A stretch of 45,869 bases of DNA from positions 1 through 45,869 of the forward strand of contig DAIDHV010000011.1 of assembly GCA_027451905.1 (NCBI GenBank), given 5' to 3'. A program made the translations under genes and the position numbers. The notes beneath the pieces are model-generated. The model searched no databases, was not told where the DNA came from, and worked only from the letters and a program-made list of their open reading frames with translations. The stretch's first letter is position 1, and the number at the start of each line of letters is the position of its first letter. Positions 32,858-39,768 of the stretch are shown one piece after another. This stretch comes from Armatimonadota bacterium (GTDB lineage Bacteria; Armatimonadota; Fimbriimonadia; Fimbriimonadales; Fimbriimonadaceae).

Positions 32858-32864
32858 TGTAAAA

Positions 32865-33878
32865 ATGAAGTCACCATTTCTGATCGGTTCCATTGCTGCC
32901 CTTGTTTTGTTAAGCGGATGCCTATCGAACTCCTCTCCTTCGGCTGCCAATCCGAAAGGATCTTCATCCAGCAAGCAATCGGGTTCTTTTAAGGTAGCTT
33001 TGTTGACTCTTGGCCCTGTTGATGACGCGGGCTGGAACGCGCTTGCCTATAACGGGTTACAAGCTGTCAAGACCAAGCTAGATGCCCAAGTCAATAACCA
33101 AGTGGCTTCTGGTACTCAAATTAAAGACGCGCTGAGGTCTTACGCCCAGCAGGGATACAACCTAGTAATTGGCCACGGGTACGAATATAACGCTCCTGCC
33201 TTTGATGTAGCAAAGAACTTCCCCAAGACTGATTTTGTAACCAGTTCAGGATCGCAAACCGCTCCCAACTTAGCCACGTTTCGGTTTTATCTAGAACAAG
33301 GGTTTTATTTGGCTGGCATGATGGCGGCCGAAATGTCTAAAACCGGAGTTATTGCTCAAGTTGGTGGAGACAAGGTGCCGCCTATAGCCTCAACTTTTGA
33401 TGCCTTTGAGGCAGGGGCAAAGGCCGCCAATCCAAAAATTAAGGTCCTTACCGTATACACGGGGAACGGCAACGACGTTGCGGCTGCAAAGAGGGCAACC
33501 GAGAGCGTTATTGCTCAGCATGCAGATTTTGTGATTCACCAAGCGGACAACGCGGCTCAAGGTGTTTTTGACGCCTGTAAAGAACATCATGTCTTTGCTT
33601 TTGGTGCCAATGCCAACCAAAATGACAATCAATCGGGAGTGGTCATTGCTTCTGCCGTGATCAATGCTGATCCCGCCTTTGTTGCGGTTGCACAAGACGT
33701 CAAAGATGGAACCTTTAAGGGCTCGGTGCGCCTCGTTGGTATGGATACGGGAGCAATTGAGTTTGACATCAATCCTAAGTTTCAGGCTCAAATTCCTGCC
33801 AAAGTCGTTGCTTCGATCCAAGCAGCAGAGGCGGCAATTAAGTCTGGCAAACTCGTTGTGCCCAAATTGAACTTCTAG
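32865..33878 (+). CDS. BMP-family (BmpA/PnrA-like) substrate-binding lipoprotein
   Basis: 337 aa. The lipobox LLSGC places the lipidated Cys at residue 19, followed by a Ser-rich linker. The mature domain is a type I periplasmic-binding fold of the BMP family: VALLTLGPVDDAGWNALAYNGL is the diagnostic start. QGYNLVIGHGYEYNAPAFDVA, QGFYLAGMMAAEMSKTGVIAQVGG and VFAFGANANQND follow. BMP proteins bind purine nucleosides (PnrA type). The start was set at ATG 32865 because the signal peptide begins there; longer frames overlap nuoI. An ATPase and two permeases follow, completing the importer. Confidence 0.93.
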   Translation: MKSPFLIGSIAALVLLSGCLSNSSPSAANPKGSSSSKQSGSFKVALLTLGPVDDAGWNALAYNGLQAVKTKLDAQVNNQVASGTQIKDALRSYAQQGYNLVIGHGYEYNAPAFDVAKNFPKTDFVTSSGSQTAPNLATFRFYLEQGFYLAGMMAAEMSKTGVIAQVGGDKVPPIASTFDAFEAGAKAANPKIKVLTVYTGNGNDVAAAKRATESVIAQHADFVIHQADNAAQGVFDACKEHHVFAFGANANQNDNQSGVVIASAVINADPAFVAVAQDVKDGTFKGSVRLVGMDTGAIEFDINPKFQAQIPAKVVASIQAAEAAIKSGKLVVPKLNF

Positions 33879-33919: not shown

Positions 33920-35356
33920 GTGAAAAGCCTGGATGTCCGTTCCATTAGCAAAGCTTTTGGAGCCACCCAGGCCTTGCAAAATGTAAGCCTGACATTCAAA
34001 GGCGGGGAGGTCCATGCTGTCTTAGGAGAAAACGGGGCTGGCAAATCAACGTTAGTTAGCGTTATCGCTGGCTTTCTCAAACCCGATTCGGGATCAATTG
34101 TGAGTGATGGTGAGGAACTGCCGCTGGGTCAGCCCCACCTGACAAGGCAAATGGGAGTAGCCATGGTTCATCAGCATTTCACCCTAGCGCCTAGCCTATC
34201 AGCTGCCGAAAACTACACGTTAGGGCATCTGACGAAACTTGGTTGCCTCGTTAATCCTCGGAAAAAGGAGGCTGAACTTAAAAGTCGAGCCACGGAAATG
34301 AACTGGTCTATTTCGGCAAGAGAAAAGGCTTCTGCGCTGCCGGTTGGCATGCAGCAGAGATTGGAAATCCTGAAGAACATTGGATCAAACTCTGAAGTCC
34401 TGATCTTTGATGAGCCAACCGCCGTGCTCACTCAAGATGAATCGGCTGAACTATTGCAGTCGTTACGTCACTTTTCTGCTTCGGGTAAGGTTGTCATCCT
34501 TATTGCTCATAAGCTATCTGAAGTTCTTTCGGTTGCTGACCAAATCTCGGTCTTACGCAAAGGTGTGCTCATTGGCAGCGTAAATCGAAGTGAAGCAACT
34601 AGTGAAAATCTTGCCGAGATGATGCTGGGAGAGCCGCCTCGTTTTGACAAAGTTCAGACGGAGCTCAATCTTTCTGAAGGATTAAGGCTAGATTCTGTTT
34701 CCGTTCTTGGGGATGCAAAAAATCGCGCGATCACCAACTTAAGCCTAGAGATACGGCGAGGCGAGATTGTTGGAATCGGGGGGGTGGACGGCAATGGTCA
34801 GTATGAATTATCGGAAGCGGTCACCGGTGTACGCAAAATTAAGTCTGGGCAAATTCGTTTTGCGGGAAAAATAAATCCTGTATTGGCTTACATTCCTGGT
34901 GATCGCCGCGCAGAAGGGCTTGCTCTTTCCTTAACTCTTTGGGAAAATCTTCTAATTGGCAAGAAGCGTGGGGACGGGGTCCATGACGGCTACCTAAACC
35001 TTAAGGTGATCCGATCTTGGGCAAGAAATCTATTGACAAAATTCCAGGTCAAAGCTCTTGGAGAGCGGGACTTGGCAAGCTCGTTGAGTGGTGGAAACCA
35101 GCAAAAGGTGGTTGTGGCAAGGGAGTTAGATCGAAACCCGGAATTGATTGTGGCTTTGAATCCAACCCGGGGCCTCGATATCAAAGCCTCTGAATTTGTT
35201 CGTTCTTCCCTGCTCAAGGCTAGCAACGATGGAGCCGCTGTCTTGCTAATTTCAACCGACCTAGATGAACTTGCTGAGGTTGCCGATCGAGTCCACTTTC
35301 TTCAGGGCGGACGACTATCGGAGCCCTCCGACATCAAGGCAATGGTAAGTCAATGA
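33920..35356 (+). CDS. ABC importer double ATP-binding protein, nucleoside/sugar type
   Basis: 478 aa with two ABC domains in one chain, like NupO/YufO and RbsA. Domain 1 has Walker A GENGAGKST (residues 36-44), signature LPVGMQQRLEILK and Walker B VLIFDEPTAVL. Domain 2 has the degenerate first motif GGVDGNGQYEL and the signature LSGGNQQKVVVARELDRNPELIVALNPTRGLD, the usual asymmetric pattern of this class. LPVGMQQR is characteristic of the BMP-linked nucleoside group. It lies 41 bases after the binding-lipoprotein gene and overlaps the first permease by four bases. It energises uptake at the inner membrane. Confidence 0.93.
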   Translation: MKSLDVRSISKAFGATQALQNVSLTFKGGEVHAVLGENGAGKSTLVSVIAGFLKPDSGSIVSDGEELPLGQPHLTRQMGVAMVHQHFTLAPSLSAAENYTLGHLTKLGCLVNPRKKEAELKSRATEMNWSISAREKASALPVGMQQRLEILKNIGSNSEVLIFDEPTAVLTQDESAELLQSLRHFSASGKVVILIAHKLSEVLSVADQISVLRKGVLIGSVNRSEATSENLAEMMLGEPPRFDKVQTELNLSEGLRLDSVSVLGDAKNRAITNLSLEIRRGEIVGIGGVDGNGQYELSEAVTGVRKIKSGQIRFAGKINPVLAYIPGDRRAEGLALSLTLWENLLIGKKRGDGVHDGYLNLKVIRSWARNLLTKFQVKALGERDLASSLSGGNQQKVVVARELDRNPELIVALNPTRGLDIKASEFVRSSLLKASNDGAAVLLISTDLDELAEVADRVHFLQGGRLSEPSDIKAMVSQ

Positions 35357-36432
35357 TAAGCGAACATAACAAAGCCAAGGCTCTCTTGCCCTCATGGGCT
35401 AGCCAACTTTTGTTGCGTTCTGGCTTGTACATTTTGGGGTTTGGCTTGTTGCTTGCCCTGACACTAGCAACTTTTCACCTTCCCGTTTTCAGTTCTGCCG
35501 AATTGCTCTTCCATGGCGCCTTTGGAGATCAGTTTGGAATTGGCAGAACGGCTTCCAAAGCAACTCCACTATTGCTTTGCGGTCTAGGTGTGATTGTAGC
35601 GTGGAAGGCGGGCATGTTCAATATCGGCGGAGAAGGTCAATTTGTATCCGGCGGATTGCTTGGGGCAGCTGTGTATCCAGTTCTTCAGTCACACCATATC
35701 TCCGGTTCCATTGCTATAGTTTGCATCCTAGTTGCCTCTGCGGTTGGAGGAGCCATCTGGGCAGGGATTGCTGGATTTTTAAAGGTTCGCAGAGGAGTGG
35801 ATGTGGTCATCAGTACGATTTTGCTTAATTTCATTGCTTTTCAGATCATGAAGTGGCTGGTATCAGGCCCGATGATGGAAAAAAGCGGGGGCCTCCCCGA
35901 GACTCCCCAAATCACTTCAAAGGATATTCTTTGGCACCCTAACCCTCAGACAGACTTCCACCTAGGGATTGCAATTGCGATCCTAGTTGCTCTTGTTATC
36001 TGGTGGATCCAATATCGAACACGATTTGGGCTGGAAATGAGGGTTGTGGGCGATAATCCGACGGCTGCCAGGTCAAACCGTTTGTCAAGCGGAAGGCGGC
36101 AAATTGAAGCGATGCTGATTTCTGGCGCTCTCTGTGGATTAGCAGGCGGAATTGAATACAGCGCAATGGCAGGGCAGATCGGATTAGATTTTAATCAGAA
36201 CTGGGGGTTTTTGGCGATACCGGTTGCGTTGGCAGCAGGACTCCAGCCCCTTTATGCGATTCCAAGTGCAATATTCTTTGGAAGCTTGTTTGCAGGAAGC
36301 GTCAATCTTAGCCGTTACACACAATCAGGAGATTCCGTGATTTACATCATCCAGGCCATTGTTGTGTTAGGACTTGTTGCCGGCCAAACCTGGAAGATGA
36401 AAAGCAGAAGAACAGGGGAGGTCATCGGATGA
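35353..36432 (+). CDS. ABC importer permease, BMP/nucleoside type, subunit 1
   Basis: 359 aa, strongly hydrophobic with eight or more predicted membrane segments. The family landmark WKAGMFNIGGEGQFVSGG lies near residues 82-98; GMFNIGGEGQ is the hallmark of YufP/NupP-type permeases. The second, RAVGDNPTAARSNRLSS-like segment (RVVGDNPTAARSNRLSSG), is the coupling region. GALCGLAGGIEYSAM and NQNWGFLAIPVALAAGLQP are also typical. It overlaps the ATPase and the second permease gene by four bases each. It forms the transmembrane pathway with the next gene. Confidence 0.93.
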   Translation: MISEHNKAKALLPSWASQLLLRSGLYILGFGLLLALTLATFHLPVFSSAELLFHGAFGDQFGIGRTASKATPLLLCGLGVIVAWKAGMFNIGGEGQFVSGGLLGAAVYPVLQSHHISGSIAIVCILVASAVGGAIWAGIAGFLKVRRGVDVVISTILLNFIAFQIMKWLVSGPMMEKSGGLPETPQITSKDILWHPNPQTDFHLGIAIAILVALVIWWIQYRTRFGLEMRVVGDNPTAARSNRLSSGRRQIEAMLISGALCGLAGGIEYSAMAGQIGLDFNQNWGFLAIPVALAAGLQPLYAIPSAIFFGSLFAGSVNLSRYTQSGDSVIYIIQAIVVLGLVAGQTWKMKSRRTGEVIG

Positions 36433-37316
36433 GCATTTTATCCGTCCGCTCGATAATCGCGACGATCCCCTACGCGGCTCCGGTTGCCTTTGCGGGTCTC
36501 GGCGAGTCCATCGGCCAGCTGAGTGGCCTCATTAATGTCGGGCTGGAAGGGATGATGCTAACTGGAGCCTACTTTGCACTGGTCGGAACAACCTTGTTTC
36601 CCGGCCATTTTGCGGTTGAAGCTGGGTTTGCCTGCGGCACGATTGCGGCGGTTTTACTCGCCGTGATCAGCGCAATTTTTACCGTCTGGCTAAATGCGGA
36701 CCAGGTTGTGGTGGGCACCGCTGTGAATCTGCTGGCACTTGGGCTAACAACAACGCTGTTTCGTGACCACTATGGGCAAAGTGGAAGCCTCATATCACTG
36801 CCTTCCCTTCACCGCACTTTCGGTTTTGATGCCCTCACCATCGCGTTTCTTCTTTTGCTGCCAATGAGTTGGTTCTTGGTCTATCGCACTGGTTGGGGAT
36901 TGGCGATTCGGGCAGCTGGCGATTACCCGCCTGCTGCAGAATCAGCCGGCTTTTCGGTGAGAAGACTTCGAACCGGTGCCGCCTTGATCGGAGGGTTCAT
37001 GGCAGGGCTAGGAGGCGCGTATTTGGTCCTAGGGACAACTGCGACCTTTACCGAGAACATGACGGCAGGCAGAGGGTTTTTGGCGATCGCCCTAGTAACC
37101 TTTGGAAGGTGGAAGCCTAGCTGGATTGCCCTCGCCGCCCTGTTTTTAGGTCTCCTTGATTCCTTGCAATACCAGCTTCAAGCAACTGGCATCCATATTT
37201 CGGCATACCTTCTGCAGTCGCTGCCGTATTTGGGGGCTCTCATTGTTCTATCGATTGCGGGAACGGGTAGCTTTGCCCCGAAAAGCCTCGGCATTCCCTT
37301 AAAATCTCACGAGTGA
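36429..37316 (+). CDS. ABC importer permease, BMP/nucleoside type, subunit 2
   Basis: 295 aa with about seven or eight membrane segments. GLINVGLEGMMLTGAYFAL near residues 33-50 is the YufQ/NupQ counterpart of the FNIGGEGQ motif. AIRAAGDYPPAAESAGFSVRRLRTGA is the cytoplasmic coupling loop. GFLAIALVTFGRWKP follows. It is the last gene of the importer set: binding lipoprotein, double ATPase and two different permeases. The substrate is inferred to be purine nucleosides from the family; no experimental evidence can be seen here. Confidence 0.93.
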   Translation: MSILSVRSIIATIPYAAPVAFAGLGESIGQLSGLINVGLEGMMLTGAYFALVGTTLFPGHFAVEAGFACGTIAAVLLAVISAIFTVWLNADQVVVGTAVNLLALGLTTTLFRDHYGQSGSLISLPSLHRTFGFDALTIAFLLLLPMSWFLVYRTGWGLAIRAAGDYPPAAESAGFSVRRLRTGAALIGGFMAGLGGAYLVLGTTATFTENMTAGRGFLAIALVTFGRWKPSWIALAALFLGLLDSLQYQLQATGIHISAYLLQSLPYLGALIVLSIAGTGSFAPKSLGIPLKSHE

Positions 37317-37372: not shown

Positions 37373-38233
37373 TTGGGTTTTATGGAATCAGTGGCATTAA
37401 CAAGGGAAGTTACTTTTTCGAGTGGTCACCGTTTTTGGCTGGACCATTTGAGTGCCGCAGAAAACTTGACCCTCTTTGGAGCCTATGCCTCGCGATTCAA
37501 TCATGGCCACAACTACCGATTGCAAGTGACGATTGATGGCCAAGTGGATCCAATGACGGGAATGGTTGTTAACATCAAACTCTTGGATGAATTGCTTCAA
37601 GACAATGTTGTTGATAAATTTCACCTCAAGAGCCTGAATGATGAGGTTGCAGTTTTAAAAGGCAAGGTGCCAACCCTTGAAGTCCTTTTGCACGTTGTGC
37701 GCAATTTGATAGCGGAGCCAGATGGAAGAGTCTTGCTCAACTCATCTTCGCCTCAAAACTGCCAAGTAACCCTGCAAAGACTGCGATGCTTTGAAATGCC
37801 CGATTTATGGGCCGACTGGACAGAAAATATGATGACATTAACCCGATCTTACGAATTTGCAGCCGCTCATCGCCTTCATGTTGCGGGCCTAAGCCATGAT
37901 GAGAATGTCAAGCTTTTTGGAAAGTGCAACAACCAAAATGGTCATGGCCACAACTATGTTGTTGAAGTTACGGTTACTGGCCAAATGGATGAAAACACAG
38001 GCATGATTATTGACCTTGTCCAGTTAGATCGCCTTGTTGAATCGGAGATTGTTGAGAAGCTAGACCATAAAAACCTTGATGTCGATGTTCCCGAACTGTT
38101 GGGGCGTCCGACAACCAGCGAAAACATTGTCGCCTTCATTGACAAAGTCCTTCAAGAAAAACTTGGGAAGGCCCTTGTCGGTGTCCGGCTATTTGAGACG
38201 GCCCGTAACTCTTTCGAAATCAGCCATGGGTGA
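37373..38233 (+). CDS. fused tandem 6-pyruvoyl-tetrahydropterin synthase (PTPS) protein
   Basis: 286 aa from TTG 37373; residues below count from ATG 37382. Two PTPS-fold domains are joined head to tail. Domain 2 (about 150-283) looks active: zinc ligands His163, His188 and His190, catalytic Cys182 in LFGKCNNQNGHGHNY, relay residues Asp228-His229 in LDHKNLDVDVP, and Glu272. These phrases closely resemble the animal PTPS of tetrahydrobiopterin synthesis. Domain 1 (about 8-145) keeps zinc ligands His16, His41 and His43 and Glu138, but has Tyr35 where the Cys should be and Phe80 for the relay Asp. It therefore probably lost catalysis and may be structural or regulatory. The SDR gene overlaps its end by eight bases. 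Confidence 0.85.
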   Translation: MGFMESVALTREVTFSSGHRFWLDHLSAAENLTLFGAYASRFNHGHNYRLQVTIDGQVDPMTGMVVNIKLLDELLQDNVVDKFHLKSLNDEVAVLKGKVPTLEVLLHVVRNLIAEPDGRVLLNSSSPQNCQVTLQRLRCFEMPDLWADWTENMMTLTRSYEFAAAHRLHVAGLSHDENVKLFGKCNNQNGHGHNYVVEVTVTGQMDENTGMIIDLVQLDRLVESEIVEKLDHKNLDVDVPELLGRPTTSENIVAFIDKVLQEKLGKALVGVRLFETARNSFEISHG

Positions 38234-38939
38234 TTTCTCGCTTTCTAAGCGGATTTTGGTCACCGGTGCCTCAAGCGGAATCGGCAAGTCCATTGCTCTG
38301 GGACTTTGGAATGCGGGCTATTCGGTTGTTGCCAACGGTCGGGATGAAAGCCGCTTGAGTGACCTCGCTGCCCAATCAAATCACCAAATCGAGATGGTTA
38401 TTGGAGACTTAGCGGAAGCTTTGACGGTGGATAGGCTTCATGACTCTCTTTATTCCAAGCCAGATTCCTATCCGGTGCTGATTAACTCGGCTGGAATCGC
38501 GGCTTTTAGCGATTACGGTTCGGGAACTGTAGCCGATTTTGAAAAGCAGATACTGGTCAATTTGACCCTTCCAAATCGGCTGATCCATCGGGTTCTTCCA
38601 GATATGTTGCATCGAGGGGGTGGGCAAATCATCAATATTGGTAGCATTGCTGCCGTCAACGTGTTTGCAGGGGCCGACGCTTACAGCGCCAGCAAAGCTG
38701 CCCTTCATAGCCTTGGAAGGACATTGCTGGCAGGACACAGGAATAGGGGGCTTAAGTTAACGACCGTGATTTGTGGCGCTGCCGACACTCCAATCTGGGA
38801 TTCAATGCCAGAACCACCCGATCGGGCTAAGATGCTATCGCCCCAAGATGTTTGCGATGTTGTGCTCTTTTTGCTGAACTTGAGCTCTTCGGCCAACATA
38901 GACGAAATAACCTTGCTTCCACAGGGCGGTATTTTGTAA
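38226..38939 (+). CDS. short-chain dehydrogenase/reductase, candidate sepiapterin-reductase-like
   Basis: 237 aa from ATG 38226, which overlaps the stop of the PTPS gene by eight bases. The classical SDR motifs are intact: TGASSGIG (residues 13-20), NSAGIAA (NNAG-equivalent), catalytic Ser140 in INIGSIAAV and Tyr153-x3-Lys157 in DAYSASKAAL. The translational overlap with a PTPS gene suggests a reductase acting on a pterin product, as sepiapterin reductase does in tetrahydrobiopterin synthesis. That role is inferred from context; generic 3-oxoacyl reductase or other SDR roles remain possible. Confidence 0.85.
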   Translation: MGDFSLSKRILVTGASSGIGKSIALGLWNAGYSVVANGRDESRLSDLAAQSNHQIEMVIGDLAEALTVDRLHDSLYSKPDSYPVLINSAGIAAFSDYGSGTVADFEKQILVNLTLPNRLIHRVLPDMLHRGGGQIINIGSIAAVNVFAGADAYSASKAALHSLGRTLLAGHRNRGLKLTTVICGAADTPIWDSMPEPPDRAKMLSPQDVCDVVLFLLNLSSSANIDEITLLPQGGIL

Positions 38940-39075: not shown

Positions 39076-39105
39076 TTGGACTCCATCTTGGAACGATACG
39101 ATAAT
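39076..39105 (+). promoter_or_regulatory. candidate promoter upstream of the HNH gene
   Basis: TTGGAC (39076-39081), an 18-base spacer and GATAAT (39100-39105). A transcript starting near 39112 would meet the terminator at 39132-39163 after about 20 bases of unique sequence, giving either a tiny RNA or an attenuated leader for the HNH gene. Confidence 0.4.
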
Positions 39106-39131
39106 ACGCATGGCTCAGTTGCTAACTCTTC

Positions 39132-39163
39132 AAGCCTGCGTGTCCGTGTACGCAGGCTTTTTT
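39132..39163 (+). terminator. strong rho-independent terminator in the HNH leader
   Basis: AAGCCTGCGT and ACGCAGGCTT form a perfect ten-base-pair stem with an eight-base loop, followed by a T-run (six T from 39158). It lies 63 bases before the HNH start codon and points in the same direction, so it may act as an attenuator or end an upstream small transcript. Confidence 0.85.
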
Positions 39164-39225
39164 ATTGGCAAGCCCCAAGAGAAAGTCAGTTCAGTTCAGT
39201 CCAAGGCCGCGAAGAGGTGTTGGAC

Positions 39226-39768
39226 ATGATAAGCCATGAAGTGCTGGTCTTGAATAACAACTACGAGCCGCTCAACGTTTGCAACATGAGGAGAGCGCTT
39301 TCTTTGCTGATGCTTGGTAAAGCAGAAGTGCTTCAGCAGCGGGACGTCCCATTGGCAACAGTACGGGGTGAAGTGTCGGCTCCATCCATTGTCAAGATGC
39401 GGTACACGGTGAGAAGGCCAATGCCCCAGCTACGGCTTTCTCGACATTCCATTTTAGCAAGAGATAATTACTGTTGCCAGTACTGTGGAGCGAAGGGTAA
39501 GGATCTCACCATCGATCACGTTGTGCCAAGATGGGTTGGTGGCGAAAACTCTTGGGAAAACTTAGTGGCTTGTTGCCGAAGATGCAATCTAAAAAAAGCA
39601 GACAAAACGCCCTTGCAAGCCGGAATGAAATTAAGCCGGAAGCCGAGAAGGCCCCACTTTGTGCCGTATTTGTCGTTACCGCTGTACTTAAAAGCCCAGA
39701 ATCGAACTGACTGGCAAGATTATCTGCCTCAATTTGAAGAATTTGCGATGCCCAATATATCGAATTAG
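39226..39768 (+). CDS. HNH endonuclease (RRXRR/IEA-type small HNH protein)
   Basis: 180 aa from ATG 39226, chosen because GAAGAGG lies eight bases upstream. The N-terminal part has the conserved phrase VLVLNNNYEPLNVCNMRRALSLL seen in a widespread family of small chromosomal HNH proteins. The C-terminal domain is an HNH zinc finger: Cys84-x2-Cys87 (CQYCGAKG), Asp97-His98 in LTIDHVVPRWVGG, then ENLVACCRRCNLKKADKTP with Cys117 and Cys120. The family is often a single non-mobile gene with unknown biological role. It is preceded by a promoter-terminator leader. Confidence 0.88.
   Translation: MISHEVLVLNNNYEPLNVCNMRRALSLLMLGKAEVLQQRDVPLATVRGEVSAPSIVKMRYTVRRPMPQLRLSRHSILARDNYCCQYCGAKGKDLTIDHVVPRWVGGENSWENLVACCRRCNLKKADKTPLQAGMKLSRKPRRPHFVPYLSLPLYLKAQNRTDWQDYLPQFEEFAMPNISN

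Follow-up and report, generated by a model that had tools for sequence, protein, structure and literature searches.

A two-domain PTPS gene of animal type overlaps an SDR gene behind an ABC importer operon in Armatimonadota: a probable locus for a reduced biopterin cofactor

Results

A fused PTPS gene lies between an ABC importer and an SDR gene

Inspection of the window (the whole stretch of 45,869 nucleotides of Armatimonadota DNA analyzed here) reveals a gene for a two-domain 6-pyruvoyl-tetrahydropterin synthase (PTPS), preceded by the genes of an ABC importer and followed by a gene for an SDR reductase.

32862-33878, forward strand: BMP/PnrA-type substrate-binding lipoprotein of an ABC importer, nearest solved relative 6pi5
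33920-35356, forward strand: ABC transporter ATPase with two ABC domains
35353-36432, forward strand: ABC permease 1
36429-37316, forward strand: ABC permease 2
37382-38233, forward strand: bimodular PTPS (bPTPS-II type), 283 residues from the ATG; a TTG at 37373 is also open
37397-37822, forward strand: N-terminal PTPS domain without the catalytic triad; zinc ligands His16, His41 and His43 and residues Glu100 and Glu138 kept, Cys replaced by Tyr35 and Asp-His by His-Leu
37838-38224, forward strand: C-terminal PTPS domain, animal-like and complete; Cys182, Asp228, His229, zinc ligands His163, His188 and His190, Glu247, Glu272, spacing CxxxxxHGH
38226-38939, forward strand: SDR reductase, predicted equivalent of sepiapterin reductase; Ser140-Tyr153-Lys157 plus Phe94, Trp191 and Met203

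An earlier note on this DNA had described a fused tandem PTPS overlapping the SDR gene by eight bases, and both features are present. The open reading frame at 37373-38233 encodes 286 residues, or 283 if counted from the ATG at 37382, which is a more likely start than the TTG, and it holds two PF01242 stretches (whole-protein E 8.5e-50; in the genome scan, 1.4e-19 for the first and 1.3e-28 for the second). The SDR gene begins with the ATG at 38226, and the PTPS stop codon ends at 38233. The two-domain PTPS is the sole PF01242 protein of its genome, which is 98% complete. That the two-domain frame is not a matter of chance follows from the occurrence of the full-length protein in 83 of the 101 genomes searched, its own counted, where the relatives' proteins are about 33-54% identical to that of the window over their full length. 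A scan of named genomes extends the form beyond Armatimonadota to Chloroflexota, Cyanobacteria, Bacillota, Poribacteria, Planctomycetota, Binatia and others. N- and C-type PTPS also occur as two neighboring genes that share a reading frame and are divided by one stop codon followed by a start codon, at five Acidobacteriota loci and one locus of an unassigned bacterium (L160:3992-4825, L161:4001-4879, L165:2587-3489, L167:3959-4822, L168:3959-4816 and L197:3718-4641); the N-gene keeps the full triad in most of these, and the form is either unfused or re-split.

In 48 of 55 genomes from the organism's own family, in 5 of 7 from family f5 and in members of three more families, PTPS is directly preceded by the last importer permease, which overlaps or touches the PTPS start in most of the own-family and f5 genomes with this linkage. 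The presence of the importer operon ahead of the PTPS and SDR genes in most related species is the firmest new clue to come from the analysis. On the other side, an SDR of the same type lies directly 3' of PTPS in 28 of the 50 own-family genomes that could be read, with none at the threshold used in 22. The order PTPS-folE-SDR occurs in Chloroflexota, Poribacteria and family f5, and PTPS-folE in Acidobacteriota. Many relatives also have an HNH endonuclease gene (39076-39768 in the window) close to PTPS, where it often lies on the opposite strand, which describes a shared neighborhood and not one operon.

The C-terminal domain groups with animal PTPS

The C-terminal domain carries the motifs LFGKCNNQNGHGHNY and LDHKNLD and has an intact triad (Cys, Asp, His) together with its zinc ligands and the Glu that anchors the pterin, which bears out the earlier description of this domain as catalytically complete. 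Its likeness to the animal enzymes holds as well: E-values are 2e-33 with rat PTPS and 7e-33 with human PTPS versus 8e-8 with E. coli QueD, and identity to the rat enzyme reaches 49% over the aligned part. The N-terminal domain follows the same trend, with E-values of 1e-17 for animal PTPS versus 4e-3 for QueD. Compared with the solved rat (1b66, 1gtq) and human (3i2b) structures, the C-domain is 44-49% identical and has all catalytic residues in common with them; in contrast to the two-domain window protein, the animal proteins have a single domain. Animal PTPS is a homohexamer.

A maximum-likelihood tree of 91 domains, including E. coli and Pseudomonas QueD, the relatives' stand-alone homologues and animal PTPS, separates two sides. 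The two QueD proteins and the stand-alone homologues form one clade (100/95), and every N and C part of a two-domain protein falls with animal PTPS on the opposite side, so that the second domain of the window protein stands outside the QueD clade. All 36 N-domains, from Armatimonadota, cyanobacteria, Chloroflexota, Bacilli and Poribacteria, form one clade (99/98); the C-domains do not resolve into one, and animal PTPS falls among C-domains and single-domain proteins. Given the monophyly of the N-domains, the two-domain form looks like the product of a single duplication and fusion that is now spread across several phyla.

Motif spacing gives the same assignment. The C-domain reads Cys182...His188-Gly-His190 with Asp228-His229 and Glu272, where CxxxxxHGH is the signature of PTPS-II (PMC5041015) and QueD (PTPS-I) has CxxxHGH. 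The NCBIfam QueD model TIGR03367 nonetheless scores the two-domain protein at 102 bits, above its cut-off of 89. The folate-bypass type (PTPS-III), defined by a Glu in ExxHGH and the lack of FolB, is rejected: the Glu is absent at the site and FolB is present (G000:C3:204206).

A bimodular bPTPS-II serving tetrahydrobiopterin (BH4) synthesis was reportedly described by Kong and colleagues in 2006 for Synechococcus sp. PCC 7942. The window protein resembles it in having two PTPS domains per chain, in its PTPS-II type and in an N-domain lineage common to both, with BH4 synthesis the role proposed here. Given that bimodular PTPS-II for BH4 was previously known, the window protein is best regarded as an Armatimonadota example of a described family. 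The two differ in phylum, in the N-domain, where cyanobacterial copies lack part of the triad (Asp-Phe) and the window protein lacks all three residues, and in setting, where the window gene adjoins an SDR gene and an ABC importer and the cyanobacterial copies have no such neighbors. Canonical activity in vitro has been reported for Synechococcus PTPS-II (PMC5041015). Among the papers searched, we found none that deals with PTPS in Armatimonadetes or with BH4 in Fimbriimonas.

The N-terminal domain keeps its zinc and pterin-anchor residues without a triad

The N-terminal domain retains zinc ligands and lacks the catalytic Cys and Asp, as had been noted before, and the triad His is missing too. 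Its Asp-His site reads His-Leu (FHLKSLN), and a multiple alignment places both conserved Glu residues (100 and 138) as retained. The zinc His and both Glu are invariant in all 55 own-family members, which rules out a decaying remnant; as read from these alignments, the loss of the triad is lineage-wide and not decay. At the Cys position, 48 of the 55 members have Trp, and the window protein has Tyr. A different, half-silent state, unlike the Trp type, occurs in N-domains of family f2 (L118:3986-4891, L122:3974-4810 and other loci), which keep Asp-His and replace the Cys with Ala, Leu or Thr; of 15 such N-domains, 13 have Ala, in most cases with HHGHNY.

Such conservation raises the question of whether the N-domain does more than provide a scaffold. 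A role as sensor or feedback site, in which the zinc and the anchoring Glu bind pterin, would explain the invariance of the zinc His and both Glu across 55 of 55 members, and the Trp in 48 of 55 fits selection for a site without a catalytic Cys. Three points count against it: the window protein itself has Tyr at the Trp position, the N-domain evolves faster than the C-domain (mean identity 52% versus 61%), and the zinc may be purely structural. We therefore treat a sensor role as a tentative idea, less probable than a structural one.

Comparison across 157 two-domain proteins reveals how the triad is distributed between the domains. The C-domain Cys is retained in every one. In 95 of them, the window protein included, the N-domain lacks both Cys and Asp-His and the C-domain is complete. 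The Asp-His pair is lost from 12 C-domains (Poribacteria, Chloroflexota and two of family f2), and the partner N-domain keeps the pair in 12 of 12. In rat PTPS, one subunit gives the Cys and the neighboring subunit the Asp-His, an inter-subunit triad that Burgisser and colleagues reportedly described in 1995. The pairing of every C-domain lacking Asp-His with an N-domain bearing it agrees with sharing of the triad between domains, and these sequences suggest a catalytic N-domain in some lineages and a silent one in that of the window. The pattern is suggestive and not proof, since only about three independent losses lie behind it.

The AlphaFold model of the two-domain chain (pLDDT 95.7, pTM 0.91) places the modeled C-domain on human PTPS with a Z-score of 18.4 over 135 residues. 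The side-by-side placement of the modeled domains recurs in the tandem T-folds of uricase (Z 12.7 over 222 residues for the whole chain) and GTP cyclohydrolase IB (Z 11.2 over 202), which at 6-11% identity have no close sequence relation to the chain and carry out other chemistry. The model covers one chain. Across chains, in a trimer or tetramer ring, the triad seems to call for a C-C contact in Armatimonadota and for an N-C contact in Poribacteria, demands that we could not reconcile with one fixed ring.

The SDR resembles Chlorobium-type sepiapterin reductase

A profile of 27 PTPS-linked SDR sequences was compared with the PDB, and the top match is the sepiapterin reductase of Chlorobium tepidum (2bd0), in an E-value tie with 2ehd; when the window SDR alone is the query, 2bd0 ranks only 60th. 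Given the tie, the call of sepiapterin reductase rests on Phe, Trp and Met residues and on gene order. What sets 2bd0 apart from 2ehd is a pair of residues, Trp191 and Met203, that all 53 of 53 PTPS-linked SDRs have: 2bd0 shares both, and the next among the matches listed do not. Phe94 occurs in 38 of the 53 and also in the window SDR. Phe94 and Trp191 align with Phe99 and Trp196 of 2bd0, which are indispensable in substrate binding in the C. tepidum enzyme (PMC7520308), and the catalytic Ser140, Tyr153 and Lys157 are in place. The C. tepidum enzyme yields an L-threo product.

Two other identities were rejected. The earlier note had weighed a fatty-acid reductase, and the SDR falls far under the FabG cut-offs (90 bits versus 298 for TIGR01830, 99 versus 222 for PRK12826), with the profile ranking sepiapterin reductase first. 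In pteridine reductases (PTR1/FolM/PruA), an Arg takes the place of a Gly that other SDRs have in their N-terminal glycine motif (PMC13259868); the window SDR reads TGASSGIG, without this signature. The nearest NCBIfam name for the window SDR is an unnamed family, PRK07454, under cut-off, and the PTPS-linked SDRs as a group also match that family best in NCBIfam. If PRK07454 is a cyanobacterial family, the sepiapterin reductase of cyanobacteria may belong to it.

The remaining pathway genes lie elsewhere in the genome

The earlier note had pointed to a GTP cyclohydrolase and a pterin-dependent hydroxylase as genes to look for elsewhere, and both were found, together with a dehydratase.

C10:71512-72267, own genome: GTP cyclohydrolase FolE2, 278 bits versus a cut-off of 215
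C3:457278-457979, own genome: phenylalanine 4-monooxygenase, 291 bits versus a cut-off of 247
C5:107126-107386, own genome: carbinolamine dehydratase

Judged by its gene content, the genome thus carries a full BH4 route on paper. No FolE of type IA turned up in the own-family members searched; this type adjoins the two-domain PTPS in seven relatives of the own order, and in one order member (G062) the hydroxylase gene is divergent from PTPS-folE. Among genomes that have the two-domain PTPS, 74 of 83 also have the hydroxylase, versus 5 of 18 that lack the PTPS (p 3e-7, uncorrected for kinship); in the other 9 of the 83 no hydroxylase was detected.

Presence of the two-domain PTPS does not follow queuosine genes

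The window locus lies outside any queuosine cluster. In its genome, queC and queE are adjacent (L214:8272-9686, C1) and no separate queD was found. A stand-alone QueD-like gene occurs in many relatives, and in some of them it lies close to queC. All 30 genomes with this gene have queC, and no such gene was found in the 15 genomes without queC. The two-domain PTPS is kept in 12 of those 15, and 11 of the 12 have the hydroxylase; its persistence there ties it to the hydroxylase route.

Given a queC-queE pair without a separate queD, a side role in queuosine synthesis is possible for the window protein. A bifunctional enzyme would have BH4 as its main role and also supply 6-carboxytetrahydropterin where a separate QueD is missing, as in 14 of the 61 searched genomes, the own genome included, which combine full-length queC and the two-domain PTPS without a QueD-like gene. 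Hybrid COG0720 enzymes serving two pathways, folate plus Q, provide a precedent (PMC5041015). On the other hand, we found no sequence feature that distinguishes the 14 genomes, and the missing QueD may have diverged or may lie where the assembly has a gap; we consider dual function rather doubtful. That the protein is simply the genome's QueD (6-carboxytetrahydropterin synthase), with the SDR unrelated, is highly improbable: it is the sole PF01242 protein beside a queC/queE pair without queD and exceeds the TIGR03367 cut-off, yet its tree position with animal PTPS, the CxxxxxHGH motif, its distance from the que genes, and its retention in queC-less genomes while most relatives hold a separate QueD-like gene that tracks queC led us to reject QueD as its sole role.

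Discussion

The locus very probably makes a reduced biopterin cofactor, with PTPS and SDR encoded here and FolE2, hydroxylase and dehydratase elsewhere. The earlier note had read PTPS followed by an SDR as a possible pterin operon with the enzyme order of tetrahydrobiopterin synthesis, and the tree, the SDR profile and the pathway genes in the genome lend support to that prediction. From the observed sequence families, gene order, co-occurrence and predicted fold we infer which reactions take place, what product they give and with which stereochemistry, and what the N-domain does. FolE2 would convert GTP to dihydroneopterin triphosphate, which the two-domain PTPS would turn into 6-pyruvoyl-tetrahydropterin using the zinc, anchoring Glu and Cys of its C-domain. 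The overlapping SDR would then reduce the side-chain carbonyls in the manner of Chlorobium-type sepiapterin reductase, and the product would feed phenylalanine 4-monooxygenase, with recycling via carbinolamine dehydratase. The N-domain, its triad gone and its zinc and pterin-anchor residues kept, would most likely play a structural part in the ring and perhaps still bind pterin.

The importer may belong to the same physiology. Its binding protein is nearest to 6pi5, an atrazine periplasmic binding protein, which we take to be AtzT, a binder of purine-like rings; its nearest NCBIfam name is a putative B6 transporter, well under cut-off. Uptake of a purine nucleoside or pterin is our guess, suggested by the linkage, and no link between a BMP transporter and pterins was found among the papers searched. 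A wider proposal, speculative and in our view improbable as a whole, is that the inter-subunit triad is split between the fused domains in ways that vary among phyla, with Cys always from the C-domain and Asp-His from the N-domain in Poribacteria and Chloroflexus and from the C-domain in Armatimonadota and cyanobacteria, which would give lineage-specific mixed rings, and that in Armatimonadota the BMP-type ABC transporter of the operon imports a pterin or purine precursor for the route.

The triad losses among the 157 natural proteins constitute a ready experiment in how a shared active site is split after gene fusion. The SDR signature of Phe94, Trp191 and Met203 may let the third enzyme be named in many genomes where the SDR is unnamed, and the linked importer can be tested as a candidate for uptake of a pterin or purine coupled to cofactor synthesis. 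Animals are the best-known makers of BH4. In the present case genes for the whole route, along with a hydroxylase that would use BH4, are found in a bacterial phylum that has received little study.
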